A stretch of DNA of 64,000 nucleotides from a virus, in the IMG/VR virus record IMGVR_UViG_3300043411_001246, positions 1 to 64,000 of that record. The stretch is one strand, 5' to 3'. The notes below the pieces were generated by a model. The model saw nothing but the letters and a program-made list of their open reading frames with translations, was not told the DNA's origin and ran no database searches. A program made the translations under genes and the position numbers. This document shows, in pieces, positions 8,595-59,629 of this stretch (position 1 is the first letter of the stretch; every line of letters begins with the position of its first letter).

Positions 8595-8902
8595 CCGCAG
8601 CCTACCAGGCCCTCTCCACCGTGAGAGACCGCGGGCCGTACAACCCGCCACAGGTCTCGCTCGTGCCCGGGTTCGGTCGGGAGCTGCTCAAGGTGCGCGT
8701 CGCCTCTTCGGACCAGAAGAAAGGCAAGAGCGGCGGCTTTCGCATGGTGCTCTTGCGCGTCGGGGCAGGCTGGCGCCCGGTGGCCATCTTCGCCAAGGTG
8801 CAGGCCGAAGACTTCGCCCACCACGACCTGCTACGGCGCCTTGCCGAGGAAGATGCCAGCGATGGCGAGCCCTCGCCCTTGCCACCAGCCGCGACCGAGT
8901 AG
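8495..8902 (+). CDS. HigB/RelE-like toxin-family protein (type II TA)
   Basis: 135 residues from GTG 8495. The core KSGGFRMVLLRVGAGWRPVA followed by IFAKVQAED resembles the beta-sheet core of RelE/HigB mRNA interferases, where a basic residue precedes a hydrophobic strand and a K-x-E/D element closes the sheet. Third-position GC is high from the GTG onward, supporting this start despite 100 bp of overlap with the previous gene. The downstream HTH gene (8993) could be its antitoxin in the HigBA order, but it has its own promoter. Toxicity is not established. Confidence 0.6.
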   Translation: MANITITPPRQGGTFERDTRRLAKSFPSVGDDVTAAYQALSTVRDRGPYNPPQVSLVPGFGRELLKVRVASSDQKKGKSGGFRMVLLRVGAGWRPVAIFAKVQAEDFAHHDLLRRLAEEDASDGEPSPLPPAATE

Positions 8903-8938
8903 CCCGACCCCTCGCCCGGCCGGTGCCTACCCCTGCCC
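8903..8938. repeat. 36-bp direct repeat, copy B
   Basis: Second copy of the repeat at 8041-8076 (35 of 36 identical), ending 15 bp before the TTGACC box of the HTH gene promoter. Confidence 0.7.
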
Positions 8939-8953
8939 CAAGATAGAAAGTGG

Positions 8954-8980
8954 TTGACCTGTACCTAAGTTGAGTTAGCT
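8954..8980 (+). promoter_or_regulatory. promoter of the HTH regulator
   Basis: TTGACC (8954-8959), 15 nt, TTAGCT (8975-8980), 12 nt to ATG 8993. The operator at 8965-8978 covers spacer and -10 with the same geometry as at the leftward promoter, which suggests shared control or autoregulation. Confidence 0.55.
8965..8978. promoter_or_regulatory. operator 3, CTAAGTTGAGTTAG
   Basis: Third CTAA-N6-TTAG site. Its right half TTAG is the start of the TTAGCT -10 hexamer, exactly as operator 1 sits on TTAGAT of the leftward promoter. Confidence 0.65.
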
Positions 8981-8992
8981 TCTGTGGCTAGC

Positions 8993-9298
8993 ATGGCCAC
9001 CAAGCGACGAACGAAACAAGCCAAGCCCGCGGCACGCCGGGCCACCCTGACCGAGGGACAACGCCTGTTCGAGGCGTTCGTTGCCCGGTGCGGGCTCACG
9101 CAACTCGCCATCGCCGCCGCCCTCGGCGTCAGCGATGTCACCATTTGGTTCTGGCGTACCGGGGAGAAGCGCCCGGTGGACCACCAGCGCGCCAAGATCG
9201 AGGCGTGGACCGGGGGCAACGTGCCCTCGACCGCGTGGCGCACGGAAGCCGAGCGGGCCGAGGTCGAGGCCATGGCGCCGCTGGCGATGGGGGCTTGA
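8993..9298 (+). CDS. Cro/CI-type HTH regulator
   Basis: 101 residues from ATG 8993 (an in-frame GTG at 8984 would add three residues). A basic N-terminus (ATKRRTKQAKPAARR) precedes a helix-turn-helix: LFEAFVARCGLTQLAIAAAL then GVSDVTIWFWRTGEKRP, the layout of lambda-repressor-like domains. No C-terminal cleavage domain is present, so it resembles Cro or a short repressor, or a HigA antitoxin. The operator overlapping its own promoter and the two in the divergent region make it the natural candidate to bind CTAA-N6-TTAG. That assignment is inference. Confidence 0.8.
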   Translation: MATKRRTKQAKPAARRATLTEGQRLFEAFVARCGLTQLAIAAALGVSDVTIWFWRTGEKRPVDHQRAKIEAWTGGNVPSTAWRTEAERAEVEAMAPLAMGA

Positions 9299-35114: not shown

Positions 35115-36698
35115 ATGGCACGCAAGAAAGGCCGAGGCGCCGCAACCACCGCGCCACCGGCCGCGCCCGCGCTCGCCATGGCGCCGACGCCCACGCCGGA
35201 CCTGCTGGCGCCCGCGCCCCTGATCGACCGCTACCCGGTCGTCCTCGGGTCGGGCCTCACGCTCCAGTACGTGAGCAATGCCCTGCGCATCTGCACCACG
35301 GGCTACCGCCAGAACTACGTTGACCTGTTCAACGAGTTGATCGAGCGGGACGCCCACGCGCAGGCCATGGTGGTCAAGCGGGTGCAGACCATCGCCGGGG
35401 CCCGGCTGAGCATCGGCCCGCCGGACCTGCCGCCGGACCACCCGGAGGCCGACCTCGCCCGCGAGATCGCCGAGACGGTGAGCCAGCGCATCCTCGGCCT
35501 GCCGGACCTGACGCAGCGCCTCGCCAGCCTGGCCCGCGCCGACATCCTCGGCGTCGCGGCGAGCGAGGTGGTGTGGGGCGACGTGGACGGGGGCTTCTGG
35601 CCTCGCCGCCTCACGTTCGTCCACAGCCGCCGCCTGGCCTACCCGGACGCCGGCTCGTGGGATCTGCACCTGTGGGATCAGGGGTCGGTCACCGGCTACG
35701 GCTGGGACGCCCCGACCAACCGCCCCGGGTTCGGCCTGAACATCACCCGGGACATGCCGCCCGGCAAGTTCGTCGTCCACACCCCGCAGTTCCGCGACGA
35801 CTACCCGACCCGCGAGGGATTGGGCCGCGCGCTGGTGTGGTTGATGGCCTTCAAGATCATCGGGATGCGGCAGGGCGCTTCGTTTATCGAGCGCTACACC
35901 AAGATCCTCACCTGGGCCTCGTACGCCACGACCAGCACGGACGTGCCGCGCGCGGCCTCGCCGGACGACATCGCGCAGGCGGACGCCACGGTGAAGGCGC
36001 TCGGCATCGGCACCCTGACCGCGGCGACGCTGGCCGACGCCATCAAGATTCACATGGATGGCCCCGCCCTCAAGGGCAGCGCGTCCACGATGACCGTGCC
36101 CGAGTGGATCGCCATCTGCGACGAGCAGACGACGCGGCTCTTGCTCGGCAACACGTTCACCACCAGCGCCGGCAAGTTCGGGAGCAAGGGCACGAGCGAG
36201 ACCGGCAAGGAGGGCGAGTTGGAGGGCGCACGGCTGTCGGCCGGGATGCTCTGCCAGACGCTCGACCGTGACCTGCTGGTGCCGTGCGTGGACCGCAACT
36301 GGCCCGGCCGGACGCACCTGGCGCCGCGCGCCACACTGCACCTCGACAAGCCCAGCCCCCACGCCGTCCTCGACCTGAACACCAAGGCGGCGGCCAGCGG
36401 CATCCCCGTGGACGCCGACGCCGTGGCCCGCCAGTGCGGCGTGCCGACGCTGGCCCCGGACAACGTGGCCGGACGCCGCATGGTGCCGGTCAGCGCCGGG
36501 GCCCCGCCCCCGCTCGACCCGTCCAGGAAGCCGGACCCCGCGCCCGTCAAGGACGCGCCGCCGACCGAGGTGGCGCCCGAGAAGGACGCGCCGACCCCGG
36601 ACGACATCGACCGCCCGCGCGGTGGTCGTGAGGACGACCCCGACACCGCCGAGGGCGGCGTCACCGATCAGGCCGGCGGCGACGCTGGCGACGACTGA
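35115..36698 (+). CDS. portal protein, DUF935 (Mu gp29-like)
   Basis: 527 residues. DUF935 signatures: NELIERDAHAQAMVVKRVQT, FWPRRLTFVHSRRL, KFVVHTPQFRDDYPTREGLG, RALVWLMAFKIIGMRQGASF and TTRLLLGNTFTTSAGKFGSK. The C-terminal 90 residues are Pro/Asp-rich and disordered. Forms the dodecameric portal at the capsid vertex. In Mu this gene is followed by a gpF-like head protein, which is absent here. Confidence 0.92.
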   Translation: MARKKGRGAATTAPPAAPALAMAPTPTPDLLAPAPLIDRYPVVLGSGLTLQYVSNALRICTTGYRQNYVDLFNELIERDAHAQAMVVKRVQTIAGARLSIGPPDLPPDHPEADLAREIAETVSQRILGLPDLTQRLASLARADILGVAASEVVWGDVDGGFWPRRLTFVHSRRLAYPDAGSWDLHLWDQGSVTGYGWDAPTNRPGFGLNITRDMPPGKFVVHTPQFRDDYPTREGLGRALVWLMAFKIIGMRQGASFIERYTKILTWASYATTSTDVPRAASPDDIAQADATVKALGIGTLTAATLADAIKIHMDGPALKGSASTMTVPEWIAICDEQTTRLLLGNTFTTSAGKFGSKGTSETGKEGELEGARLSAGMLCQTLDRDLLVPCVDRNWPGRTHLAPRATLHLDKPSPHAVLDLNTKAAASGIPVDADAVARQCGVPTLAPDNVAGRRMVPVSAGAPPPLDPSRKPDPAPVKDAPPTEVAPEKDAPTPDDIDRPRGGREDDPDTAEGGVTDQAGGDAGDD

Positions 36699-46378: not shown

Positions 46379-48745
46379 ATGGCCGGCGTCGTCAAAATAG
46401 ACTTCAAGATCGGCGGCGCCGACGCCGTGGCACGGGCCATCTCGACCGTCCTGAAGTCGTCGGAACGCGCCATCCGGCAATCGACGCAGAACGAGCAGAA
46501 GGCCAACCGTGAGCGCGTGTCCGGCGCGGCCGGCGCGTCTCGTTCGGTCATCGCCGAACAGCGCAAGGTCGCCGCCGAACAGCGCCGCATGGAGCGCGAG
46601 GCGGTCGCCGTCGTCCGTCAGGCCAACCGCGAGAAGGTCCAGGAAGAACGCCGCGCCTCGGCCGAGGTGGTGGCCGTCGTCCGTCAGGCCAATCGCGAGA
46701 AGATGGCCGAGGAGCGCAAGCTCGAAAACGAGAAGCGCCGCGCCGAAAACCAGGCCAAGAACCGCGCTGAGCAGAACGCCAAGGAGCGCAACCGGCTGCT
46801 GGGCGGCATGGTCGGCGGCGGCGTCTCGGGCGCCGCGCACGGCGTGGCCACCCTGGGTCGCGGTGCCGGTGCCCTGGTCCGTGGCGGCATGGACTTGGCT
46901 GGCTCACTCATGTCCGGGGCCGGAGTCGAGTTCGGACTCAGCCGTTCCATTCAAGTTCGGGCCGAACTTGAAAAGCGCGCCGTCGACCTGAGCAACAGCG
47001 GTTATCAGGAGAACGGCAAGGGTATCCAAACGCAGCGTGTCGATCCTAGGACGCTCATGAAGGAGGCCAGCGCAGTAGGCATGGCTTCGGCCATTGACCC
47101 GAGCCAGGCAATCGAGGGCGTGGCCGGGTTTACCAAGGTGACTGGCGACCTTGCGACCGCTCGCGCGCTCTTGCCTGACATATCCAAGTTTGCCCGCGCC
47201 ACTGGCACCGACCTGGCGCAGGCCGTCGCCGCCGCGGGTGAGATGGGCAAGGCCATGGGCGACGCAGCTACGAATGAGGAAGAGGCCAGGCAGAAGGCCG
47301 CCGCCATCATGCAGGTGATGAAGGGCGTTGCCGGACAGGGCAAACTCGGGTCCATCGAGATGAGCGACTGGGCCAAGGGCGGCGCCCGGTACGCTGCCGC
47401 GGCCCAGCAGTTTGAAGGCAACGCCGGGTCCAATATGTTGAAGGTCGGTATGCTCGGTCAGGAGGCGCGCGGCGGCGGTGGCGCGTGGAACCCTGCGACC
47501 GCGGCGGCCGCCGTCTCTGGCCTCGTGACGACGTTCACCACGCCGTCTCGTAAGAAGGCTTTCGACAGCATGGGTATCAGCCTCAAAGGCGAGGGTGGCA
47601 AGTTGCGCGACCCGGTGGCCATCATCTCGGAGGCCATCGACAAGACCGGCGGCGACATCAACAAGTTGCAGCCGATGTTCGCCAACGTCGTCGGCGCGCG
47701 TGCCATGCGCGGCCTGTCCAACAAGTACCTGGAAGGCAGCGGCGGCGGGACCGATGAGGCGAGCAAGGGCAAGGGGCGCGCGAAGCTACAGGAAGAGATC
47801 GACCGCATGACGAAGGGCGCGGTCATGTCCGACAAGGACATCAACGATAGCAACGCAGCCTCGATGAACAGTCTGGAAGCGAAGGCCCAAATCTTTCAAC
47901 AGCGGCTCGACCAGATCGCCGGGGACATGGCTGACAAGCTCATTCCGGCGATGCTCAAGTTCGCCCCGGTGGCCGAGCAAGGCGCCGCCATCCTGACGAA
48001 GTTCATCGAGGCAGTGGCGCCCAATGCTGACCAACTCGCCAAGGCCCTCGGTCAACTGGCACCTGCCGCTGCACAGGCCGCCACCATGCTGGCCAAACTT
48101 ATCGGCGGAGCGGTGGAGAGTCCCAAGGCCGCCGCGGCGCTGCTCGTCGGCGGCATGGCGGCCAAGGGCGCGCTGGGCGTGGCCGCAGGTAGCAGCCTGG
48201 TCCAGGGGGCCATCGGCTCGGGTGTCGGCGCGCTGGCTGGAAGTGCCAAGGCAGCCGGTGCCGGGCTACTGGCCAAGGGCGGTGGCGCTCTGGCCGCGGG
48301 TGGCACGGTGGCGGCCGTCGTCGGCGCCGCGGTGGCCGGCGGGATGCTGGGCACCATGGTAACCGACTCACAAGACCAGCAATACAAGGACCGCACCAAG
48401 ACCCGCCAGGCTCTCGGGAACGAATCGACGGTACTGCAACAGAAGATGTTTCAGGGCACCGCGTCCGAGAGCGACATCAAGCGCGCCCGCGAACTTACCG
48501 GGCAACTGCGCGCCACCGCCAACGACGGCTCGTTCAGCGGCAAGGTGGACAAGATGCTGGGCGACGACTCGGCCGCACGCGCAGGCGAACAGGCTGCCGC
48601 GTTGGAGGCGGCGCTGTCCAAGGCGATACCCAAGCAAGACCCGGCCGCCATGGGCGCGGCGATGGCCGGACCGATTGCCGAGGCTGTCGGTGCCGCGGTC
48701 GGTGCCGCCAACGCGCAGAACCCCAAGATCCAGCCCCCAGGCTGA
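46379..48745 (+). CDS. tail tape measure protein
   Basis: 788 residues, the second-longest protein here. Coiled-coil N-terminal region (EQRKVAAEQRRMEREAVAVV), then the conserved tape measure core GMASAIDPSQAIEGVAGFTK, LPDISKFARATGTDLAQAVA and ATAAAAVSGLVTTFTTPSRK. Hydrophobic Ala/Gly helices follow at about 610-665 (AAALLVGGMAAKGALGVAAG, AAVVGAAVAGGMLGTMV), as expected for a protein that enters the host membrane. Sets tail length. GC drops in the core, suggesting exchange. Confidence 0.9.
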   Translation: MAGVVKIDFKIGGADAVARAISTVLKSSERAIRQSTQNEQKANRERVSGAAGASRSVIAEQRKVAAEQRRMEREAVAVVRQANREKVQEERRASAEVVAVVRQANREKMAEERKLENEKRRAENQAKNRAEQNAKERNRLLGGMVGGGVSGAAHGVATLGRGAGALVRGGMDLAGSLMSGAGVEFGLSRSIQVRAELEKRAVDLSNSGYQENGKGIQTQRVDPRTLMKEASAVGMASAIDPSQAIEGVAGFTKVTGDLATARALLPDISKFARATGTDLAQAVAAAGEMGKAMGDAATNEEEARQKAAAIMQVMKGVAGQGKLGSIEMSDWAKGGARYAAAAQQFEGNAGSNMLKVGMLGQEARGGGGAWNPATAAAAVSGLVTTFTTPSRKKAFDSMGISLKGEGGKLRDPVAIISEAIDKTGGDINKLQPMFANVVGARAMRGLSNKYLEGSGGGTDEASKGKGRAKLQEEIDRMTKGAVMSDKDINDSNAASMNSLEAKAQIFQQRLDQIAGDMADKLIPAMLKFAPVAEQGAAILTKFIEAVAPNADQLAKALGQLAPAAAQAATMLAKLIGGAVESPKAAAALLVGGMAAKGALGVAAGSSLVQGAIGSGVGALAGSAKAAGAGLLAKGGGALAAGGTVAAVVGAAVAGGMLGTMVTDSQDQQYKDRTKTRQALGNESTVLQQKMFQGTASESDIKRARELTGQLRATANDGSFSGKVDKMLGDDSAARAGEQAAALEAALSKAIPKQDPAAMGAAMAGPIAEAVGAAVGAANAQNPKIQPPG

Positions 48746-48751
48746 ACTACC

Positions 48752-49681
48752 ATGCCCATCGACCCCGTCACCAAGCGTAGCGACCTCGATGCGTTTGCCA
48801 AGATGCCCAAGGCGTCGTGGCGGGACATCGAGTTCGTGTGCGGGCCGATGGATTGGGGGTTCACCCACGCCCACGCGGCCCACCTCTACCCGGATCGAGA
48901 TGCCGGCTACATCGAGAGCACCGGGCGCAACCCGGCGACGTTCTCGTTCCTGGCCATCTTCCGCAACGGCGTCGTGGGCGAGCGGTTGCAGTTCCCGACG
49001 CTCTACCAGGCGTTCACCCGGGCGTGCATGGACCGCACGGCGGGCGACCTGCTGCACCCGGTCCTCGGGGTCATCAAGGTCAAGTGCCAGTCCTACAAGG
49101 CGTCGTTTGACGTGATGCGCCGGGACGGTGCCGATGTGCAGGTTGAGTTCATCGAATCGACCGACGAGGCCGACGAACTTGACGCGCTGCTCGGGCAGAA
49201 CAGCCCGATGGGCAACTGCATCACGGCGGCCCGCAACCTCGACGACGCGCTCGGCAACGTGAGCCCGGCGCCGCCCCCGCTGCCGCAGTCGCTCAAGCCG
49301 TCGCTGCTGGACAGCATCAAGCAACTCAACGGCGCGGTGCAGCAGTACAAGCTCGGCATCGGCAACATCGCCGGGCAGATCGATAGCTACGCCAGCGCCA
49401 TCGACGACCTGACCAACACGCTGCAAGACCTCGACGACCCGAAGAACTACCGGGCGCTGGACGCCTGCGAGCGCATGTTCGCGTCGCTGCTGGCCCTGTC
49501 GGTCGAGGTCACCAAGAAGGCCAAGCCGACCATCCCGGCCATCGTCCCGTTCACCACGTCGCTGGCCGGCGCGGCCGGGTACTTCGGCATGACCGTCGGC
49601 GCCTTCGCCAAACTGAACCCCATCCTCGCCGGGCAGACCACCCTCCTCGTGGGCACGCCCGTCATGATCGCCGCGGTATGA
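48752..49681 (+). CDS. DNA circularisation N-terminal domain protein (Mu gpN-like)
   Basis: 309 residues. The N-terminal 130 residues (ASWRDIEFVCGPMDWGFTHA, YPDRDAGYIESTGRNPATFS, LQFPTLYQAFTRACMDRTAG and HPVLGVIKVKCQSYKASFDV) match the gpN/DNA circularisation domain of Mu-like tails. The C-terminal half is helical. A baseplate-hub component, despite the family name. Confidence 0.85.
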   Translation: MPIDPVTKRSDLDAFAKMPKASWRDIEFVCGPMDWGFTHAHAAHLYPDRDAGYIESTGRNPATFSFLAIFRNGVVGERLQFPTLYQAFTRACMDRTAGDLLHPVLGVIKVKCQSYKASFDVMRRDGADVQVEFIESTDEADELDALLGQNSPMGNCITAARNLDDALGNVSPAPPPLPQSLKPSLLDSIKQLNGAVQQYKLGIGNIAGQIDSYASAIDDLTNTLQDLDDPKNYRALDACERMFASLLALSVEVTKKAKPTIPAIVPFTTSLAGAAGYFGMTVGAFAKLNPILAGQTTLLVGTPVMIAAV

Positions 49682-50964
49682 CCTCCCCCGACCTCGACCG
49701 CCTCACGCTGACCATCGAGGACGGGACGCAGTACGACCTGTGGACCGAGTGCGTCATCACCGACTCGTTCCTGGATCCGTGCCAGACGATGCAACTTTCC
49801 GTGGCCGCGGACGAGACGCGGTTCGGCCTGCTCGGTCGGCTGCGCAAGGGCGCCCAGTTTCTTCTGGAGATCAACGGCAACCCGGTGCTGGGCGGCTTCC
49901 TGGACAAGGTCGGGATGCGGTCGAGCCGGGCCGGGCGGCTGGTCACCATCACCGGGCGGGACGTGCTCTCCCCTGTGGTGGATTCCAACGTCGATCCGCG
50001 GCTGCCGGTCAAGAAGGGCATGTCCTTGATGGACCTGGCCAAGCTCCTGTTTGAAGAGCACTTCCTGCTGCCGGTGAAGGTGTCCGACTCGGACGCCGTG
50101 GTCATCGACGGCCGCAACCGCGCGGTCGGCAAGCCGGTCAAGGCCAAGCCCAAGAAGGGCCGGCGCAAGACGACCGACACGTTGAAAGAGATCTACCCGA
50201 AGGCGAACGAGGGCGGGTTTCAATACTTCACCCGCTTTGCCCACCGCGTCGGCTACCACGCCTGGGCGCTGCCGGACGGGCAGGGGATCGTGATCGGCAC
50301 CCCGACCTACGAGCAAGAACCGGCCGGGGAGATCCGGCTGGTGCGCGGCGCCGCCGGCCTGTCGAACACCATCGAAGAGAGCAGCATCGACAGCGACAAC
50401 ACCCGGGTGCCGTCTCACGTCTTCGTGCGCGGCAAGGGCAGCAAGCCCGGCGACAAGTCCAACCCCATCGGCTGCGCCATCAACCCGGACGCGCCCTTCT
50501 TCAAGCCGTTTTACCTGACGGACGAGGAGAGCGCGACCAAGGACCACGCCGACGCGGTGGCGCGGTTCGTCATGGGCAAGGCCCTGCGCGAGGCGCTGCG
50601 CTACACGGTCAAGGTGCGCGGGTTCACTGACCCGACATCGGGCCGCGTCTGGACCGTGGACACCGTGGTCAACGTCAAGGACGAGGACTGTGGCGTCGAG
50701 GGCTTGATGTGGGTGGAGCAGCGGACCTTTCGCAAGTCGCGGTCCGGCACCTTCACCGAGATGACGCTGATCCCGGCGGATAGCCTCTTGCTCGATTACT
50801 ACGCCAGCGACAGCCCGCCGCCGCCGCCTGAAAACTACAAGGCCGCCGCCGGGCAACTGCCCAAGAAGCCCGTGACCGAGCGGCAGCCGGACGCCACGCA
50901 GCGCACCTACCTCGGGTGGTTCCCCATCGTCGTGGACAACGAGACCAACAAGGACCGCCCATGA
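49678..50964 (+). CDS. baseplate hub protein (Mu gpP / late control D-like)
   Basis: 428 residues. TLTIEDGTQYDLWTECVITD, FLLEINGNPVLGGFLDKVGM, LVTITGRDVLSPVVDSNVDP, LPVKKGMSLMDLAKLLFEEH and GYHAWALPDGQGIVIGTPTY are gpP-family features (a gp27-like hub fold). Central stretch AKPKKGRRKTTD is basic. Forms the hub around which the baseplate assembles. Confidence 0.87.
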   Translation: MTSPDLDRLTLTIEDGTQYDLWTECVITDSFLDPCQTMQLSVAADETRFGLLGRLRKGAQFLLEINGNPVLGGFLDKVGMRSSRAGRLVTITGRDVLSPVVDSNVDPRLPVKKGMSLMDLAKLLFEEHFLLPVKVSDSDAVVIDGRNRAVGKPVKAKPKKGRRKTTDTLKEIYPKANEGGFQYFTRFAHRVGYHAWALPDGQGIVIGTPTYEQEPAGEIRLVRGAAGLSNTIEESSIDSDNTRVPSHVFVRGKGSKPGDKSNPIGCAINPDAPFFKPFYLTDEESATKDHADAVARFVMGKALREALRYTVKVRGFTDPTSGRVWTVDTVVNVKDEDCGVEGLMWVEQRTFRKSRSGTFTEMTLIPADSLLLDYYASDSPPPPPENYKAAAGQLPKKPVTERQPDATQRTYLGWFPIVVDNETNKDRP

Positions 50965-51602
50965 GCACCTGGATCGATTGGGTGGACGTGACCGAGTCCA
51001 CATTTTCCAAGGACGCCAGTGGTGGCGAGGCCCAGGTGGTCACCTGCGCCGTGCGCGACGCCGGGCAAGAGGACGGGCAGACGGGCCGAGATGTCGAGGT
51101 CTGGGGCCTCGGGTGCATTGTCTACCGCCCGGCCCCGCCGGACGATAAGGGCAAGTGCCAGGCGGCCGTCGCCACCGTCGGCGGCTCGCGCGTCATCGTC
51201 GCCACCCGGGACACCCGGGCCGCCACCGCGGTCGGTGACCTCGGGGAAGGGGACGCGGCCTTCTGCGCCCCGACCAGCCCCACCGCACTCATCGGCAAGG
51301 TCGACGGCAGCATGGCTATGCTGCAACAGGGGGCCGACGCCGACGCCATGATCGCGATGGAAAAGGACGGCGCCATCATCCTGCGCAACAAGTGGGGCCA
51401 GATTCAGCTCGATGAAAACGGGTTCGCCGTGGTGCTGACCTCGGGCGAGTCGTTTGAGCTGGCGCCGGCCAGCGCGCAGATCACCGCCGACGTGGTGAAG
51501 ATCGCAGGCGGTGTGGTCTCCCTCGGCGCCGCCGCTGCCGTGCCGCTGACCTTCGCGCCCACGTCCGGCGTGGTGAAGCCCGCGCCCAACATCCTCGTGT
51601 GA
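50961..51602 (+). CDS. baseplate spike/assembly protein V (Mu gp45-like)
   Basis: 213 residues. VVTCAVRDAGQEDGQTGRDV and WGLGCIVYRPAPPDDKGKCQ (OB-fold), DGAIILRNKWGQIQLDENGF, then alternating beta repeats (ITADVVKIAGGVVSLGAAAA) of a beta-helical needle. This matches Mu gp45, the membrane-piercing spike. ATGA overlap with the hub gene. Confidence 0.82.
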   Translation: MSTWIDWVDVTESTFSKDASGGEAQVVTCAVRDAGQEDGQTGRDVEVWGLGCIVYRPAPPDDKGKCQAAVATVGGSRVIVATRDTRAATAVGDLGEGDAAFCAPTSPTALIGKVDGSMAMLQQGADADAMIAMEKDGAIILRNKWGQIQLDENGFAVVLTSGESFELAPASAQITADVVKIAGGVVSLGAAAAVPLTFAPTSGVVKPAPNILV

Positions 51603-51609
51603 CCTCGCC

Positions 51610-51939
51610 ATGACGCGCTGCAAGCTCCCCGGCTTTGACCTGAAACTGCCGGGGCTGCCCAGCCTGCCGCCTGCCATCCCGTTCCCGCGCATCCCGATTC
51701 CGCGGCTGCCGACGTTCGGGCTGCGGCTGCCGGGCTTTGCGCTGAAGCTCCCCGGGTTGCCGTCGCTGCCGCCGCCGATTCCGTTCCCTCGGCTGCCCAT
51801 CCCGCGGTTGCCGACCTTCGGCCTGCGCCTGCCCGGCTTCAACCTGAAGTTGCCCGGGTTGCCCTCGCTGCCGCCGCCGATTCCCCTGCCGCGCATCCCG
51901 ATTCCGCGGCTGCCTGCCTGCCCCCTGGACGCCCTCTGA
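51610..51939 (+). CDS. Pro-rich triple-repeat protein in the baseplate cluster, 109 aa
   Basis: 109 residues made almost only of three copies of a 34-residue unit. Each begins LPGF(D/A/N)LKLPGLPSLPP, continues with IPFPRIPIPRLP or close variants, and ends TFGLR. Repeats start near residues 6, 40 and 74. It alternates Leu/Ile/Phe with Pro and Arg, has no acidic residue except at the ends, and no catalytic site. It lies between the spike (gp45-like) and the gp46-like wedge, where Mu has no gene. A structural tip, sleeve or plug is plausible; function not known. The DNA repeat unit is 102 bp with diverged third positions, so it is not recent slippage. Confidence 0.75.
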   Translation: MTRCKLPGFDLKLPGLPSLPPAIPFPRIPIPRLPTFGLRLPGFALKLPGLPSLPPPIPFPRLPIPRLPTFGLRLPGFNLKLPGLPSLPPPIPLPRIPIPRLPACPLDAL

Positions 51940-52412
51940 TGCCCGGATTTGGACTCACCTCGTTTGGCCTGACCGCCTCGGGTTTTGGCTCGACCGCGGG
52001 CCAGCCGTCGCCCGGGTCCGGCTACGCGCCGACCGTGGACAACGTGCTGGGCCGCAAGGTGGACTTCCCGACCAAGGACTACGTCGTGGACTACGACGCC
52101 ACCGGCTGCCCGCACGAGTCGCAAGACCCGGTGGCGCAGCAGGTGGCGTTCCGTCTGACCACCCGCAAGGGCCGGCTGCCGTACGACCTGGCATTTGGCA
52201 ACGACTGGTTGAACCTCGACAAGATGCCGGCCGACCTCGCCGGCTTTGGCCTGCGCGCGGCCAACCTGGCCCTGCAAGACCTCATCAACGCGGGCGCCGT
52301 CCGCATCGTCTCGGTCGAGGTCGAGCGCGACGGCGGCACCGCGATCCAGGCCGTGACCTGGCTTGACCTGCGCACCCGGCGCGAGCGCACCACCCGGACC
52401 CGGAGAGCCTGA
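51939..52412 (+). CDS. baseplate wedge protein (Mu gp46 / T4 gp25-like)
   Basis: 157 residues. A Gly/Ser/Phe-rich start (GFGLTSFGLTASGFGSTAGQ) and then KVDFPTKDYVVDYDATGCPH, PVAQQVAFRLTTRKGRLPYD, LAFGNDWLNLDKMPADLAGF and NAGAVRIVSVEVERDGGTAI, typical of gp46/gpW wedges. The ATG shares the TGA of the repeat gene (TGATG). Confidence 0.82.
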   Translation: MPGFGLTSFGLTASGFGSTAGQPSPGSGYAPTVDNVLGRKVDFPTKDYVVDYDATGCPHESQDPVAQQVAFRLTTRKGRLPYDLAFGNDWLNLDKMPADLAGFGLRAANLALQDLINAGAVRIVSVEVERDGGTAIQAVTWLDLRTRRERTTRTRRA

Positions 52413-52415
52413 CCC

Positions 52416-53936
52416 ATGGCCCAGACCGCCAACGACGTGCCGACCCGCGAGCAAGCGGTCGAGCGCGCTCTCCAGTTTTACCAGCGCGGCCTTGTCCGGC
52501 AGGCTGGCGTCTCCGCGTCCTCGGCCCGCGCCGCCACCGCCAAGGGCACCGAGCGATGGCTCACCGTGCAGGCGTGGGCGCAGGGGTTGGAGGTGGTGTT
52601 TGCCAACGCCATCGCGCTCGAGGACGCCGCCCTGCCCGACACCGCCATCGGCGACGACCTCGTGCGGATCTGCGCCATCTACGGCGTCAGCCCGAGCGGG
52701 GGCGCAGGCGCGCAGGGCCCGGTCACCGTGACCTGCACCGGCAGCGTCACCTACCCGGAGAGCCGGGAACTCACCAGCAACACCACCGGCAAGCGCTACC
52801 GGGTCGTGGCCTCGACCGTGGCCAGCGACGGCGACAGCGTCAACATCGTCGGCATCGACGTGGGCGTGGCGTCCAACCTCGCCGCGGGGGAGGTGCTGAC
52901 CTGGACCTCGCCCCCCATCGGCAGCGGGTCCACCTGCGTGGTCGCCTCCGGGGGACTGGTCGATGGCAAGGACGCCGACAACGACGGGCGGCTGCGCGAG
53001 CGACTGCTGAAGCTCCTGCGCGAGCCCCAGAACGGCGGCTCGTGGGCGCACTACCGGCAATGGGCGGAAGACGCCTCCGCGTCGGTCGAGGCGGCCTACG
53101 TGTACCCGGCGGCACAGGGGCCCGGCACGGTCCACCTGGCCTACACGGTCGAGGGCACCGCGGACAACGCCTACGCCCGCACCGGCACCACCGCCCTGAC
53201 GACGCTGGTGGCGCAGGCGGTCGTGGACGAACAACCCGAGTTTGCCGACGTGACCGTGACGACCGTGGCCCACCAGGACATCGGGCTGGCGTTCAAGCTG
53301 TCGCTGCCCGAGCCGCTGATCGGCGGCGGGGCCGGCGGGGGCTGGATCGATGAGGTCGGGGACCGCTGGGCGATTGCCAAGATCGGCGCCGGCAACGTCG
53401 ACGGGACCGTCAAGGTCACCGTGGCCTCGTCGTCGCTGACGTTCACCACCAACGCCTACAACGAGCCGGTGGATGACTCGTGGGTCTATCTCTTCTCCGT
53501 CGCTGACCGCGTGCCGTACCTGGCGCAGGTGGCCAGCCACAGCGGCAGCGCCGGGGCGTGGGCGGTGACCCTGGACCGCAGCCTGCCGACCGTCGCCGTG
53601 GGCGATTACGTCTGGCCGGCGTGTGAGCAGGGCGAGGACTACTGCGCCACGATCCAGGCCGAGGTGGCCAAGCTCGCCCCGGGTGAGAAGACCGCCGACG
53701 CCGACGTGCTGCCCCGCGCCTACCGCCACCCGCGCGCCATCGATGGCAGCCCGTCGGACCTCACCACCACGCAGCTCGTCGCCTTGCAGGTGGCGCATCG
53801 CGAGGTGACCAACGCCGCGTATTTCGAGGCCGACGAGTCCACGGTGACGCTGCCGCTGGCGCCGGACGCGCCGGGTGCGGTGACCGACCCGCCGAACGTG
53901 TTCCGCGTCGCCACCCTGGCCTTCTACCCCACCTGA
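52416..53936 (+). CDS. baseplate protein J-like (Mu gp47)
   Basis: 506 residues. RWLTVQAWAQGLEVVFANAI, GPVTVTCTGSVTYPESRELT, YRVVASTVASDGDSVNIVGI, GKDADNDGRLRERLLKLLRE and PQNGGSWAHYRQWAEDASAS are J-family hallmarks. C-terminal beta region is longer than usual. Forms the outer baseplate wedge. Confidence 0.88.
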   Translation: MAQTANDVPTREQAVERALQFYQRGLVRQAGVSASSARAATAKGTERWLTVQAWAQGLEVVFANAIALEDAALPDTAIGDDLVRICAIYGVSPSGGAGAQGPVTVTCTGSVTYPESRELTSNTTGKRYRVVASTVASDGDSVNIVGIDVGVASNLAAGEVLTWTSPPIGSGSTCVVASGGLVDGKDADNDGRLRERLLKLLREPQNGGSWAHYRQWAEDASASVEAAYVYPAAQGPGTVHLAYTVEGTADNAYARTGTTALTTLVAQAVVDEQPEFADVTVTTVAHQDIGLAFKLSLPEPLIGGGAGGGWIDEVGDRWAIAKIGAGNVDGTVKVTVASSSLTFTTNAYNEPVDDSWVYLFSVADRVPYLAQVASHSGSAGAWAVTLDRSLPTVAVGDYVWPACEQGEDYCATIQAEVAKLAPGEKTADADVLPRAYRHPRAIDGSPSDLTTTQLVALQVAHREVTNAAYFEADESTVTLPLAPDAPGAVTDPPNVFRVATLAFYPT

Positions 53937-53946
53937 GACCGCCACG

Positions 53947-54435
53947 ATGTCGACCCCTATTGCCCCCGAGACCCCGGACCTCAGCACCTTCGGTGCGCCC
54001 TACCTGGACGCGGACGCCGTGGTGGACCCCGAGACCGAGATGGCCGCTGCGGCCATGAACTTGCTGGCCACGCAGGTCGTGGCCACCGGCCACACCGCGC
54101 CGCGTGCCTGGGCCCTCTGCACCATCTCCGGCGGGGTCATCACCCTGGCCGACCATGACGCCGTGTGGGGCTCGGGCGCGGGCGTGGCGCCTGTCGCGGC
54201 CCGGTCCGGCGCCGGGGTCTACACGGTGACGTGGGCCTCCGCGTACGACGACCTGCAAGATGTGCCCGAGTCGCACTCCACCATCCTGCGCGCCGCGGTC
54301 GCCTCCGGGTACGCCGCCGCTGCCGCCCGCATCGTCAACGGCTACCTGTCCTCGGCCATCGTCGCCACGGTCAAGGCGTACGACGCGGCCGGCGTCGCCG
54401 CCGACGTGGACACCTTCACCGTGACGGTGTGGTGA
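53947..54435 (+). CDS. tail/baseplate-associated protein, 162 aa
   Basis: 162 residues. LSTFGAPYLDADAVVDPETE, MAAAAMNLLATQVVATGHTA, RSGAGVYTVTWASAYDDLQD and VATVKAYDAAGVAADVDTFT. Apparently a beta-rich virion protein inserted between gp47-like and gp48-like genes. No family recognised. Confidence 0.6.
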   Translation: MSTPIAPETPDLSTFGAPYLDADAVVDPETEMAAAAMNLLATQVVATGHTAPRAWALCTISGGVITLADHDAVWGSGAGVAPVAARSGAGVYTVTWASAYDDLQDVPESHSTILRAAVASGYAAAAARIVNGYLSSAIVATVKAYDAAGVAADVDTFTVTVW

Positions 54436-55247
54436 TGGGGGCCTTTGGCGACTGGCGGGCCCCGTTCCCGCTGCGCTTCGGGGGCCGCCCTCACGCGGTG
54501 GCCGACATGCTCTACCAGACCGTCAAGGGCGCCCGCCCGGACGCACTGGCCGGCGGGGCAGGCACCGAGGTGGACCTGGAAAACAAGGTGATGGCCCGGC
54601 TCCTGTGGATGGGCTGGCGGGCGACGGCGCGGCGCGTGGCGCAGCGCGACCCGGCCAAGCTCACCGCGGACGTGCGGCCGGTCACCCTACCGGACACCGG
54701 CACCACCAAGACGACCTCGACCCTGGCCCGGTGGGAGGCGCTGCTCTACCTGACGCCGGCCCCCGGTGCCTCGGCCCGGACCCGGCGCGCGGCGGTCAAG
54801 GCGGCGCTGGTCTCTACCTCGTCGGCGCGGCGTGTGGCCGTCGAGGACGCCATGCGCGCCATCTTCGGGTCGTGGCTGGTGGGCCTGGCCGAGAACCGCG
54901 CGACCGACGTGGACTACCCGGGCCGGGCCACCGTGGGCGATGTCCACGCCTACTGGCCGACCACGCAGACACCGCCCACCCCGGACGCCTTTCACGACGC
55001 AGACAAGCCGGGCGAGTTTTCGGCCACCTACCCGTGGCGGTCGGCGCTCTGCCTCGTGTGCGTGCAGATCCAGCCGCCGGCCTCGACCTCGCAAGACGAG
55101 ATCGACGCCAAGGTGGGCAAGGCCGTCGCGCAGCTCGACGACATGCTTCCGGCGTGGATGAGCGCCACCCTTTCGCAGTTCCCCCCAGACCAGACCGTCG
55201 GCGGCTTTTACGCCGGGGTGTCTCTGGTCGGCCTGACGGCGGTGTAA
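54435..55247 (+). CDS. tail protein (Mu gp48-like position)
   Basis: 270 residues, ATG sharing the upstream TGA. ADMLYQTVKGARPDALAGGA, RWEALLYLTPAPGASARTRR, VEDAMRAIFGSWLVGLAENR and WRSALCLVCVQIQPPASTSQ. Position directly after the J-like and 162-residue genes and before the fibres corresponds to gp48 (tail protein I/DUF2313). Similarity beyond position is limited. Confidence 0.65.
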   Translation: MGAFGDWRAPFPLRFGGRPHAVADMLYQTVKGARPDALAGGAGTEVDLENKVMARLLWMGWRATARRVAQRDPAKLTADVRPVTLPDTGTTKTTSTLARWEALLYLTPAPGASARTRRAAVKAALVSTSSARRVAVEDAMRAIFGSWLVGLAENRATDVDYPGRATVGDVHAYWPTTQTPPTPDAFHDADKPGEFSATYPWRSALCLVCVQIQPPASTSQDEIDAKVGKAVAQLDDMLPAWMSATLSQFPPDQTVGGFYAGVSLVGLTAV

Positions 55248-55250
55248 CCC

Positions 55251-56792
55251 ATGTCCTCCACCAAAGTGTTCATCCCGGCCATCTCCACCGGGGAGCGGCT
55301 GACCGCGGCCAAGATCAACGGGCTCGACACCGCGCAGTACAACAGCCTGACGCGCAATGAAAACGTGGCGCTGCTGGACGACGCGGGGTTTGACCTCGGC
55401 GCATTCGACTTCCTGATCCTCGGCAGCGGGGCAGGGAAGTTCAAGCCGGACGGGGCTTACACCGAGTTCCAGGGGTACCCAACGGTGGACTCGTCCTCGC
55501 GGGCGGTCACCGGCTACGCGCCGCCGTCGGTGCCGATCTACGACAAGGTCAGCGCCGTCGGGTTCTCCGAAGGCATCCAGCGCATCCAGCAAGTCGTCGT
55601 CTCAAGCACGCTGAACTTCTGGATCACGCTGCCCATCGGCACGGTCATCTCCACCATCTCGGTCGGGCTCAAGAAGGCCGCCGGCACCGTCGGGTTGCCG
55701 GGCGTCATGCCGACGGTGGCCCTGTACTACTACGACATGACGACCGACAGCACGGCCACCGCGGTCGGCTCGGCCGCCGCGGACACGTCGGCCAACATCG
55801 CCGCGTACCGGACATTTCACCTCGTCACCACCGCCAGCCTGAACCACACCGTCGCCGCCAGCCGTAACTACATCGTCTCGGTCACTGGCGACGATGACTC
55901 GTCCAGCAGCGGCACCGGCCTGAACATCTACCGCCCTTACATGACCGTGACCGCCTCGACGATCCGGGCGATGTTACGGGCACACGCCGGGCGCATCGGT
56001 CGGCGCGCACGAGCCGGACAGTACGGCGGCCATGTAGCGGCGCATGGCGTCGGCCGCACCGCTCACCAACCGCGCCTTGACGCTGGCCAGAATGGGCTCG
56101 GGCAACAGGGCGCAGTCGGTGTCGCAGGTCACGCACGCCCGGACCTTCTCGGCCGGGATGGTGGGGCAGCCCACCACGGCCGGACCCGTGGGCAGGCACC
56201 CGACGGCGGCGCCCCACGAGTAGCCCGCCACGCTGGCCGGCATCTCCACGACCATGCCGCTGGACAGGTGGCAGCCCTGCGGGTCGAGGGCTTCGCCCGT
56301 CGGCTCCCCAATGGTCGCCTCGACGTGGGCCTTCACGCCCTTGTAATAAACGATGTCAGCGGTCAGCTTGTTGGCCAGAAACTTCATGCCGGTGAACGAG
56401 GTCAAGCAGTCCGCGTGCCGGTGGTAGGACAGCGGGCCGGCGAGCCGGACGCCGCAGGCATAGTCGTCGGCGCCGTCGCAGTAGGTGACCTCATACTCAA
56501 GCCCGAGGCTCTCTTCGTGGGTGCCCGGCACAACGGCATGGGTCAGCGCGGTGTCGTCGCAGGCGTCGCAGATGTGCGCCCCGCCGCCGCCCTCGCCACA
56601 GACCGGGACGCCGCCGCCCTCGCCCCCTTGCCCGGCCTGCCCACCCGGGCCGGCCCCGCCCTGACCCGCACCCCCGGCGAGCTGGCCACCCGCGCCAGCC
56701 ACCCCGGCAGCGCCCGCCCCGCCGGACCCGGCCACCATGCCGCCGGCACCTGCGCCGCCTTGCCCAGCCCCACCCGAGGCCACCCCGCCTGA
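55251..56792 (+). CDS. tail fibre/structural protein; C-terminus disrupted by cargo insertion
   Basis: The first about 240 codons (55251-55970) are a genuine virion-type protein: MSSTKVFIPAISTGERLTAA, IQRIQQVVVSSTLNFWITLP, GVMPTVALYYYDMTTDSTAT and YIVSVTGDDDSSSSGTGLNI, ending YRPYMTVTASTIRAM. From 55974 the frame runs on, without a stop, antisense to the minus-strand lipoprotein gene to 56792 (513 residues in all). That tail is Arg/Gly/His-rich and looks like a shadow. The original stop was therefore probably lost when the cargo pair was inserted, and the present protein may carry a nonsense extension or be non-functional. Confidence 0.6.
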   Translation: MSSTKVFIPAISTGERLTAAKINGLDTAQYNSLTRNENVALLDDAGFDLGAFDFLILGSGAGKFKPDGAYTEFQGYPTVDSSSRAVTGYAPPSVPIYDKVSAVGFSEGIQRIQQVVVSSTLNFWITLPIGTVISTISVGLKKAAGTVGLPGVMPTVALYYYDMTTDSTATAVGSAAADTSANIAAYRTFHLVTTASLNHTVAASRNYIVSVTGDDDSSSSGTGLNIYRPYMTVTASTIRAMLRAHAGRIGRRARAGQYGGHVAAHGVGRTAHQPRLDAGQNGLGQQGAVGVAGHARPDLLGRDGGAAHHGRTRGQAPDGGAPRVARHAGRHLHDHAAGQVAALRVEGFARRLPNGRLDVGLHALVINDVSGQLVGQKLHAGERGQAVRVPVVGQRAGEPDAAGIVVGAVAVGDLILKPEALFVGARHNGMGQRGVVAGVADVRPAAALATDRDAAALAPLPGLPTRAGPALTRTPGELATRASHPGSARPAGPGHHAAGTCAALPSPTRGHPA

Positions 56793-56906
56793 CCCACCGC
56801 CACCGGCCGCAGCGGCCCCGCCCGCGCCCGCAACGGCTGGCGCCGGGCTCTCCCCGGGGTCGGAGCACGCGAGCAGAGCCAGGGGCAACAGGAGCCAGGG
56901 ACGCAT
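55974..56906 (-). CDS. Gly/Ala-linker lipoprotein (cargo gene)
   Basis: 310 residues from ATG 56906. Signal peptide MRPWLLLPLALLAC with the lipobox LLAC and lipidated Cys14, then acidic SDPGESP, which suggests outer-membrane or periplasmic anchoring. Residues about 22-95 are a low-complexity Gly/Ala linker (GGAGQGGAGAGG type). The C-terminal domain of about 210 residues has around 14 Cys, likely disulfide-bonded (CDACDDT, VTYCDGADDYACG, ACVTCDTDCALLPEP). The architecture is characteristic of Myxococcota lipoproteins. Opposite in strand to all surrounding virion genes and lower in GC in the C-terminal half, so a moron for lysogenic conversion is likely. Confidence 0.82.
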   Translation of the reverse strand: MRPWLLLPLALLACSDPGESPAPAVAGAGGAAAAGGGGSGGVASGGAGQGGAGAGGMVAGSGGAGAAGVAGAGGQLAGGAGQGGAGPGGQAGQGGEGGGVPVCGEGGGGAHICDACDDTALTHAVVPGTHEESLGLEYEVTYCDGADDYACGVRLAGPLSYHRHADCLTSFTGMKFLANKLTADIVYYKGVKAHVEATIGEPTGEALDPQGCHLSSGMVVEMPASVAGYSWGAAVGCLPTGPAVVGCPTIPAEKVRACVTCDTDCALLPEPILASVKARLVSGAADAMRRYMAAVLSGSCAPTDAPGVCP

Positions 56907-56947
56907 GGGGACAGGATACGCCGGCCCAGCCCGGGTGCTACCCAGGG

Positions 56948-57682
56948 TCAAAGCGCCCACTCCTTGCCGCCCATGCACTTGACGTGGGTGAAGCCGATGG
57001 TTCGCAGGCTCTCCGCGGTCTCACCCTTGGACCACTGGCTACCCCAGACCATGCAAGAAACCGGGTCGTGAGAGGGGATAAGAACTTCGTCCTGGTCTCC
57101 CCAAGTCTTGCTCTGCCGGTTGAATGTCCTGGCGATGTTGCGGCGCCCGGCGCGCAGGGCCACCGCGGCGACGTGCTGCCGCCTCTCTCCCTCGGGCACG
57201 GCCATGGTGATGACTGTCACCTTGTCGAGCACCTTCCTGAACTCGGCGCCTGTCTGTAGCCCATCCGGTAGCGACTCGTAGGACTTCCACAGGTCGAGAA
57301 TCTTGTCTTCCGGCTCGGGCTCTTTCACGACGGTCGCCGCGGGTCTTGGGTTGGCCTTGCTCATGTCGGCCGCGGTCACGATCTCGGCCGGCTTGGTAAT
57401 GGAGTAGATGGCCACGGCAATCGCGCCGAGGCCGATGGCGACAACGGCAAGGGCTCCCGCTGCACCCGACGACTGCGGCGCCTTGGTCGGCTGCGGCGCC
57501 AGGCCAAGCACGGCCGCGCCAAACTCAGGCACCCTGGTCAGCGGGTACCACTCGTTTGATCCGGCCGCACATACCGTCGCGCCGGGCGGCACCTTGCCGG
57601 CCTGAATACCTCTCACGATCAGATCCGTGGACAGCGGGCCGATGGGCGCATCTGCGCCGGGTGCGTGAACGTACCATTCCAT
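56948..57682 (-). CDS. GYF_2 (DUF4339) single-pass membrane protein (cargo gene)
   Basis: 244 residues from ATG 57682. Residues 1-60 form a GYF_2/DUF4339 domain (MEWYVHAPGADAPIGPLSTD, GNEWYPL-like end SNEWYPLTRVPEF). A transmembrane helix follows at about 75-96 (AGALAVVAIGLGAIAVAIYS). The C-terminal 140 residues (LDKVTVITMAVPEGERRQHV, VSCMVWGSQWSKGETAESLR) are soluble. GYF_2 proteins are frequent in Myxococcota. With the lipoprotein gene it forms a minus-strand pair; GC and codon use are more relaxed than in the tail genes. Role unknown: possibly envelope alteration or superinfection exclusion. Confidence 0.78.
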   Translation of the reverse strand: MEWYVHAPGADAPIGPLSTDLIVRGIQAGKVPPGATVCAAGSNEWYPLTRVPEFGAAVLGLAPQPTKAPQSSGAAGALAVVAIGLGAIAVAIYSITKPAEIVTAADMSKANPRPAATVVKEPEPEDKILDLWKSYESLPDGLQTGAEFRKVLDKVTVITMAVPEGERRQHVAAVALRAGRRNIARTFNRQSKTWGDQDEVLIPSHDPVSCMVWGSQWSKGETAESLRTIGFTHVKCMGGKEWAL

Positions 57683-57790
57683 CCGGCCATGCTCGCTCCA
57701 TGACGCGCCGTGGCGCTAGCGCCCTGACCTCACCAGCGCCCTGCCACCGTGGGGCGTTGTCGTTTTGTCCTCCCGACCTGCCCGAGACCC
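57683..57790. promoter_or_regulatory. intergenic region between cargo pair and fibre gene
   Basis: Contains a 12-bp perfect palindrome GGCGCTAGCGCC (57712-57723) and a CGCCC/GGGCG hairpin followed by TTGTCGTTTTG (about 57738-57766), terminator-like for rightward transcription. The promoter of the leftward cargo genes should lie here, but no convincing -35/-10 pair was found. Confidence 0.4.
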
Positions 57791-59629
57791 ATGGCTATCA
57801 CCTCGATTCGATTCACCCCGGAGACGCCGGGCCCCGGGCAGAGGGTGACGTGCATCCACGTCGGCACCACCACCGGCAACGAGACGCGGTACTACCTGCT
57901 GTCCGCGCCGCCCTCGTCCGCGCTGGTCACGATGGCGACCTACGCCGACCTGGGCAAAACCCTGGCCGACACGCGCATCACCCTCGACGGCAGCGGCCAC
58001 GGGGTCTTCACGCCGGACGTGCCGGGCGATTACGCCGTGGTGGCCCGGGACATCACGACCTACCGCTTTCAGCCGCACTACCAGGGTGACGTGCCAGACG
58101 GCACCGACCCGATGGCGGCCGACAACGAAGAGGCAAGCTTCACCGTCCTCGGCGTGGTGACGCCGGCCGCCACCGACCAGCCCTCGTCCAGCGGCGTGAC
58201 CCTGGCCGTCTGGCAGCAGGTGACCCGGACCATCGGCTTCGGGCCGGACACCGCGAGCCTCCAGATCAAGGCGGCCAACGCCTTCGTGTCGGACCCGGAC
58301 TTCATCACCGATGCGACGCTGTTGAAGAACGGCAGCACCGCGCCGGCCAAACTCGCCATCTACGATCCGCAGGTTCTACAGGTCCTCGACCTCATCCGGA
58401 CCACGGGCAACTCCAGCAACCTGCCCACGAGTCAGGATCTGCTGGCATACCTCGTGGACGGGTTCAACGAACACATCGCGCTCCAGTCGCACAAGGTCCA
58501 CACCGCGGCCGACGTGACCAACACCCTGACCAGCACGGCCAGCGTGACCGGCACGGCGCCGAGCATCAAGACGCGCCTCGACGACATCGTTGCCAAGTAC
58601 AACGCGCACCGCATCCTGACCGCCGGCTCGGTCCACGCCGCCGCCGACGTGACCAACGTGATGACGGCCATGGCGTGTACCGACACCGACACGGCCATCG
58701 CCTACTTCGAGCACGTCTACGAGGAGCTTCTGTCCCACGCGACGGACACCGCGCCGCACGATGTCAGCACGCCGAACGAGGTTGTCGACGGCTACTTCGG
58801 GTGGTTGGCCGAGCCGCCGACCACGCTGGCCGAGGTGGCGCAGGCCATCAACGGGACCGCGGGCAGCCGGTGGGAAAACTACGGGCTCACCAGCCTGTAC
58901 GAGCAGCACCGGCAGCGCGTGTTGGTCTACGCCCACGCCGGCACCGGCCTCGGCCCGGACGCGGTCAACGGCGTGCTCTACCTCGGCGGCAGCCTGACCA
59001 ACCTGATCGTCACCGCCAACGCCCTGGCCGCGGCGCTGCGGCGCCACATCTCCAACCAGGACGCGGCCGGCGCCGACGCCGCCACGCCGTACCACTACAC
59101 CGACGGCAACAAGTCGCGGCTGCCTCGCACCAGCGCCAGCGATATCCGCACGCTGGCCATCCTGATTGAAGAGCTGTGGATCTGCCTCGAATCGCACATG
59201 TGGTCAGCCGGGCCCCCGAGCGGCTACGTCACCGTGTCCACGGCGGGCGCCCGAGGTCAGCACGGTGACCGCGGGTGGGGTCGCATTGCCTTCCAGGGCA
59301 CCTCGGACGGGGTGCGCCCGACGCAGTTGATCCGCCTGCAAAAGGCATTCGACCGGGCCCTGTCCCCCTCCGTCGATCCGCCCCTGGACGTGGGAATCCT
59401 CGCCGCGATTCTGATCCTCCGGTCCGGCTTCTCCTTACCCGCCTCGTCTCCGTCTCCCCCTCGCCCGCGGCCCTGTCGCGCGGGTGCCCCTGCACGCCCT
59501 GAGGTTCCCCCATGGCTTCGGCCCTGTTCAAGCTCTCTTCCAACGGCGGCTCGTCCTACCTCGCGGCCGGCACCGCCATGGCCGACGCCGATGCGCTGGC
59601 CTACGTGTCCAGCGGCACCTATTCGATGA
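57791..59629 (+). CDS. virion/tail fibre-region protein with NAHR-HAAAD repeats
   Basis: 612 residues. N-terminal beta domain (TSIRFTPETPGPGQRVTCIH, GHGVFTPDVPGDYAVVARDI). The centre contains a repeated unit of the type K.N.H..T...VHAAADVTN (HKVHTAADVTNTLT near 235 and YNAHRILTAGSVHAAADVTN near 275), known from phage structural proteins. The last about 75 residues, from SPSVDPPL, are Pro/Ser/Arg-rich and overlap the next gene by 118 bp, so the natural stop may have been lost here too. Probably a large tail or fibre component. Confidence 0.65.
   Translation: MAITSIRFTPETPGPGQRVTCIHVGTTTGNETRYYLLSAPPSSALVTMATYADLGKTLADTRITLDGSGHGVFTPDVPGDYAVVARDITTYRFQPHYQGDVPDGTDPMAADNEEASFTVLGVVTPAATDQPSSSGVTLAVWQQVTRTIGFGPDTASLQIKAANAFVSDPDFITDATLLKNGSTAPAKLAIYDPQVLQVLDLIRTTGNSSNLPTSQDLLAYLVDGFNEHIALQSHKVHTAADVTNTLTSTASVTGTAPSIKTRLDDIVAKYNAHRILTAGSVHAAADVTNVMTAMACTDTDTAIAYFEHVYEELLSHATDTAPHDVSTPNEVVDGYFGWLAEPPTTLAEVAQAINGTAGSRWENYGLTSLYEQHRQRVLVYAHAGTGLGPDAVNGVLYLGGSLTNLIVTANALAAALRRHISNQDAAGADAATPYHYTDGNKSRLPRTSASDIRTLAILIEELWICLESHMWSAGPPSGYVTVSTAGARGQHGDRGWGRIAFQGTSDGVRPTQLIRLQKAFDRALSPSVDPPLDVGILAAILILRSGFSLPASSPSPPRPRPCRAGAPARPEVPPWLRPCSSSLPTAARPTSRPAPPWPTPMRWPTCPAAPIR

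Follow-up and report, generated by a model that had tools for sequence, protein, structure and literature searches.

Lipoprotein genes set flush against tail genes in the fibre cluster of a contractile-tailed phage and its relatives

The fibre cluster of the phage lineage described here repeatedly receives lipoprotein genes, each placed on the opposite strand and flush with the 3' end of a tail gene, and we regard this as the main new result of the analysis. The phage in which it was first seen carries an inserted segment of ~1.8 kb with two such opposite-strand genes, one for a lipoprotein and one for a membrane protein with a GYF_2 domain, while two of its relatives carry unrelated lipoproteins of the same build one tail gene further on. 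The sections below describe the insertion and its two genes, the recurrent slot to which they belong, the evidence on lifestyle and host, and the functions which the genes may serve.

Phage, window and relatives

The window, i.e., the whole stretch of DNA that was analysed, comprises bases 1-64000 of a 71,457-base virus record. The window phage is contractile-tailed, encoding a terminase, portal, head protease, major head protein, tail sheath, baseplate hub and baseplate J, and its rightward tail genes span ~42 kb to 63 kb of the window. Relatives (L010, L011, L013, L014, L064 and L065) were obtained via baseplate J and via the tail gene called 86x, and they have their tail-gene order in common with the window phage at 28-70% identity. 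Two further handles are needed: G001 is IMG/VR record 3300033067_001873, and G002 is the 86.7-kb record behind L010.

Two other loci deserve mention in their own right. A short gene built of repeated LKLPGLPSLPPPIPFPRIPIPRLPTFGLRLPGF units lies at 51610-51939, and relatives have it between the same baseplate genes. Near the point where the early genes diverge, 8495-9298 encodes a weak RelE-like protein followed by a YdaS/HTH-like protein, possibly a toxin-antitoxin or switch pair.

An insertion flush with the end of a fibre gene

The first-pass annotation had two minus-strand genes breaking the rightward tail operon, and the window bears this out: the lipoprotein and GYF_2 genes lie between a short fibre gene and 86x. 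The features of the region are as follows.

55251-55973, plus strand: short tail-fibre/baseplate gene, homologous part, 241 codons; homologues end here and the open frame continues to 56792
55974-55976: junction codon, read as TTA in the fibre frame (where relatives have TGA) and, on the minus strand, as the TAA that ends the lipoprotein gene; identical in G001
55974-57790: inserted segment, ~1.8 kb, ends uncertain by about 10 bases; the same boundary is empty in L010, L011, L013, L064 and L014
55974-56906, minus strand: lipoprotein gene, 310 aa, ATG at 56906; supported by codon usage, lipobox and dN/dS
56906-56868, minus strand: lipoprotein signal peptide with lipobox LLAC, MRPWLLLPLALLA then C
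about 56864-56604, minus strand: lipoprotein Gly/Ala/Ser-rich linker, about 90 residues; 85% G/A/S in the best 60 residues
56603-55977, minus strand: lipoprotein Cys-rich head, 209 residues; 14 Cys in the mature part, beyond the lipobox Cys
56948-57682, minus strand: gene of the GYF_2 membrane protein, 244 aa, with its GYF_2 domain, single hydrophobic stretch and C-terminal domain; minus-strand codon usage
57521-57676, minus strand: GYF_2 domain (PF14237), 28.3 bits in the genome scan
56951-57322, minus strand: C-terminal domain of the GYF protein, with the motif DPxxCxxWxSxWxK..SLRxxGF....CxGGxxWxL, common with a one-helix G002 protein
57791-59434, plus strand: next tail gene, 86x; in relatives it starts 0-2 bp past the fibre stop or overlaps it
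59435-59511: 86x/g87 boundary, empty in the window phage; lipoprotein slot in L014 and L065
59512-60924, plus strand: fibre gene g87; N-terminus conserved (46-75%), remainder variable among relatives

The short fibre gene has homologues at 40-45% identity in L010 and L011 and 36-48% in L013/L064. In L010, L011 and L064 the fibre end reads CGG CAG ATC TGA CC, with the 86x start codon immediately after, while the two genes overlap in L013 and abut in L014. The window counterpart of this fibre end reads CGG GCG ATG TTA CGG..., and 86x begins 1.8 kb further on. That the insertion meets the fibre frame exactly at its end and removes its stop, as had been proposed, is therefore what the alignment gives: the relatives' TGA is TTA here, and homology ends at codon 241 (55973). 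Because homology reaches codon 241, the fibre has been kept at full length and only its stop lost, and because the TGA has been replaced by TTA, the fibre frame stays open. Fibre and lipoprotein thus compete over one codon, which is TTA on one strand and TAA on the other.

As in a moron, the segment is absent from five relatives which keep the flanking genes (L010, L011, L013, L064 and L014). This comparison, with the site empty in five distant relatives and occupied in the window phage and G001, identifies the segment as an insertion. G001 aligns with 47876-56922 at about 93% identity, shows the stop-less junction as well and also encodes the lipoprotein, so the insertion is no fresh accident. 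The G001 contig extends to 41 bases upstream of the lipoprotein start, its sequence diverging from ~16 bases upstream, and the GYF-gene region is beyond its reach.

Two other explanations can be rejected. A sequencing error at the fibre stop is ruled out because G001 shows the same junction. An invertible fibre cassette (the Mu G-segment kind) does not fit, since the lipoprotein gene brings a start and a signal peptide of its own, and there are neither long flanking inverted repeats nor a serine recombinase. A search of the segment for promoter-like sites of the sigma-70 type found none, and the segment's one terminator-like site is at chance level.

The lipoprotein

Both products had been taken for envelope proteins, and both look the part. 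For the lipoprotein, a pattern scan found what defines a bacterial lipoprotein, i.e., a signal peptide and a lipobox ending in Cys (MRPWLLLPLALLAC); the GYF_2 protein has one hydrophobic stretch, read by eye at residues ~73-95.

Codon usage per codon favours the minus strand (lipoprotein head +0.295 vs fibre frame -0.186). Between the window phage and G001, the lipoprotein heads are 91% identical, and the linkers differ by indels of 15 and 6 bp, both in frame. The lipoprotein has a dN/dS of 0.52 in this comparison, against 1.11 for the fibre frame over the same stretch, and the lipoprotein frame is therefore the coding one, although purifying selection on that frame alone is marginal (P=0.053). 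Tail genes give 0.06-0.20 (the short fibre gene 0.20), and the N:S ratio of the lipoprotein differs from that of baseplate J (P=0.0002), so the lipoprotein evolves faster than the tail genes.

Database searches place neither protein in a known group. Among 50,697 phage records there were no homologues of the lipoprotein or the GYF protein, so the finding that would have told against host-like cargo (close homologues as conserved virion genes in many phages) did not appear. Searches of PHROGs and NCBIfam families gave nothing above cut-off for either protein, no homologue of known function was found for either, and among IMG/VR records the lipoprotein was found only in G001. The predicted structure of the lipoprotein was unusable (pLDDT 32).

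The GYF_2 membrane protein

The GYF_2 domain was assigned by PF14237 (E 9.4e-6) at 25.8 bits, exactly at the cut-off of 25.8, and the window phage alone has it, the other eight records giving none. A search for plasmid homologues of the protein found none, and a model of its C-terminal domain (pLDDT 61) gave no fold match with an E below 2.5.

The C-terminal part has a relative in one IMG/VR record, G002 (31-33% identity, E 8e-11). That relative is a proline-rich, one-helix protein without GYF, and its gene is convergent with one for a phage-repressor-type HTH regulator. The ORF between them has the look of an ImmA-type peptidase (AHECGH, by eye), with no profile match. The C-domain protein thus sits in a lysogeny-type region of G002, and this is consistent with its acting in an infected or lysogenic cell and not in the virion. 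In the coordinates of G002, 35427-35969 and 54974-56600 hold a tyrosine integrase, the HTH regulator, the possible ImmA-like peptidase and the one-helix C-domain protein.

A recurrent lipoprotein slot

The 86x/g87 boundary has no lipoprotein in the window phage, L010, L011, L013 or L064. In the two remaining relatives it is occupied:

L014:15121-15768, minus strand: second lipoprotein gene, 215 residues, flush and convergent with the 86x end
L065:6524-7240, minus strand: third lipoprotein gene, 238 residues; its stop and that of 86x overlap within the four bases CTAG

The L014 gene repeats the geometry of the window: its TAA stop sits across from a TTA in the 86x frame, at the point where 86x would naturally end, so that 86x in L014 continues without a stop. 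All three lipoproteins share one build: a short lipobox signal, a long Gly/Ala/Ser-rich linker and a Cys-rich head. The heads of the window, L014 and L065 proteins (209, 76 and 124 residues, with 14, 8 and 12 Cys) are not alignable, the best E being 0.17. With lipoproteins next door in L014 and L065, the insertion in the window belongs to a recurrent slot in the fibre cluster and is not a one-off host insertion. The sample behind this slot is small: eight records reach the region, and four of them carry lipoproteins, of three types.

The stop of 86x is also lost in the window, where GFS is followed by TTA (59435-59437), while L011, L013 and L064 have GFS and then a stop; the window 86x frame continues ~190 bases into g87, and there is no lipoprotein there, unlike in L014. 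In L065, no fibre-gene homologue was found between g83 and 86x.

Temperate lifestyle and host

Neither a tyrosine nor a serine integrase was found in the 71.5-kb contig of the window phage. G002, however, encodes a tyrosine integrase between its homologues of g104 and g3, the genes that close off the window phage contig on the right and on the left, respectively. The ends of G002 itself carry a g68 homologue (at its end) and a g69 homologue (at its start), and it looks like a complete genome opened within a single gene. The window phage contig is therefore probably incomplete, missing the stretch that holds the integrase in G002.

The clues to the host are indirect. No tRNAs were found, and one genome scan each for relatives of the lipoprotein and of baseplate J, seeded by short peptides, found none. 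The GYF protein matches Myxococcus xanthus GltJ below threshold (E 0.001), and its 18.2 bits against a cut-off of 450 (NCBIfam equivalog NF033761) do not make it a GltJ gliding-motility protein. A match to the solved chain 7z3c (adventurous gliding motility protein X) is likewise sub-threshold (E 0.018). We take the GYF_2 domain and the Gly/Ala-rich style of the lipoprotein to recall Myxococcota, and a Myxococcota host is a plausible guess.

Proposed function and alternatives

Superinfection exclusion is the leading candidate function, by analogy with known phage proteins. The reading that we favour, at a little less than an even chance, is that the segment is phage cargo (a "moron") in a recurrent fibre-cluster slot, and that its lipoprotein masks the receptor and so excludes superinfection. 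The lipoprotein would be exported and lipidated, and its Cys-rich head held out on the flexible Gly/Ala linker. On the infected or lysogenic cell, the head would bind and block the receptor used by the phage's own fibres (the lipoprotein gene adjoins fibre genes, which are candidate receptor binders), preventing superinfection and wasteful adsorption of progeny. The GYF_2 protein would sit in the cytoplasmic membrane and may there keep DNA from entering, in the manner of SieA or Ltp, or connect to envelope machinery. Since the two genes run against the late operon, their expression would precede late transcription or take place where it is absent.

A broader form of this idea, which we put forward tentatively as less likely than not, is that a lineage of large contractile-tailed phages has a dedicated exchange slot in its fibre cluster for modular receptor masking. 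Signal and Gly/Ala stalk would be constant in style, the Cys-rich head would be swappable and matched to the receptor of the local fibres, and the gene would be convergent with the upstream tail gene and end at its last codon, all without sequence relation to Llp. If the receptor-masking reading is right, the identity of the lipoprotein head would predict the receptor of the neighbouring fibre in phages of uncultured hosts. The flush, stop-sharing geometry would also be a simple search rule for further such cassettes.

The genes could instead be lysogenic conversion cargo with no part in exclusion, expressed from the prophage and altering host surface behaviour (adhesion, predation, motility), with the GYF_2 protein plugging into GltJ-like gliding or polarity machinery. 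The weak matches to GltJ and the gliding-motility chain would suit this, as would the C-domain homologue beside an HTH regulator in the temperate relative G002, and morons are transcribed independently of other phage genes (PMC6469090). We nevertheless consider it unlikely, though a serious candidate: the GltJ match reaches 18 bits where 450 are required, the contig is without an integrase, and the fact that such genes adjoin fibre genes in more than one phage speaks for a connection with adsorption.

Another alternative is that host DNA was taken up recently, is selectively neutral and is heading for loss. Base composition was part of the earlier case for foreign genes, and the relaxed GC ascribed to both holds for one of them. 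The GYF gene has a GC3 of 0.807, with 1 of the 52 genes lower; the lipoprotein gene, at 0.877 with 10 of 52 lower and an overall GC of 74.7%, hardly stands out. The low GC3 of the GYF gene and the marginal selection on the lipoprotein frame are what neutral uptake would produce. It is nonetheless improbable, because the lipoprotein has been kept in two phages that are 7% diverged, with indels that preserve its frame, and because three different lipoproteins of equal architecture each lie flush with tail genes.

It is very unlikely that the lipoprotein or the membrane protein is a virion component, i.e., that it builds or helps to assemble the fibre apparatus and is encoded on the opposite strand by chance. 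The genes do sit inside the tail operon, and the lipoprotein is conserved in G001, but the lipobox signal peptide and the opposite strand speak against it, and most relatives lack them at the fibre/86x boundary.

The long fibre frame antisense to the lipoprotein was correctly noted, being open on the plus strand to 56792, but it is unremarkable. TTA, CTA and TCA codons together make up 0.21% in the window phage genome, where 272 open codons are expected with P=0.57, and an equally open phase-locked antisense frame exists in 32 of 52 genes (those of at least 150 aa), so its length needs no explanation. A functional fibre extension of 270 C-terminal residues can be dismissed as highly improbable: the window phage and G001 do both close the open frame with a TGA at the equivalent place, but a dN/dS of 1.11 marks it as unselected, its codon usage is negative, and such openness is found in 32 of 52 genes anyway.

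Comparison with known systems

The window genes may work like Llp, SieA and Ltp, an analogy that carries neither family membership nor any sequence relation that we found, and in which Ltp is likened by description.

Temperate-phage morons resemble the segment in that they are additional genes set among conserved ones, running against the late operon, at sites that are empty in relatives. The window segment differs in giving no sigma-70-type promoter and a terminator-like site at chance level, and in that the stop of the upstream gene is lost at the junction.

SieA of phage P22 is an inner-membrane exclusion protein expressed from the prophage (PMC10883804) and, as a phage-coded inner-membrane protein, a model for the GYF_2 protein. 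It has three predicted membrane helices, however, where the GYF_2 protein has one and carries a GYF_2 domain as well as its own C-domain. Ltp of Streptococcus thermophilus phage TP-J34 is a membrane-anchored phage lipoprotein for superinfection exclusion (PMC3952083) and serves as a model of a lipoprotein that acts at the cytoplasmic membrane. It is like the window lipoprotein in being phage-coded and membrane-anchored, but ltp lies in a lysogeny module and the host is Gram-positive.

Llp is the closest parallel to the slot itself. The llp gene adjoins the receptor-binding gene (oad/hrs), and the Llp proteins of T5 and BF23 are non-homologous, each blocking its own phage's receptor (PMC4728585; PMC9586334); the lipoproteins of related phages can thus be non-homologous with the slot kept (PMC4728585). 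The likeness is that of a phage lipoprotein gene in a host-recognition cluster, with non-homologous proteins in a kept slot. Llp is small, however, whereas the slot lipoproteins range over 215-310 aa, join a Cys-rich head to a long Gly/Ala linker, lie flush and convergent with tail genes and, in the window, are paired with a GYF_2 membrane protein. The window phage is also contractile-tailed. If the proposed function is right, the Llp principle, known from T5-like siphoviruses, would extend to contractile-tailed phages by way of unrelated proteins.
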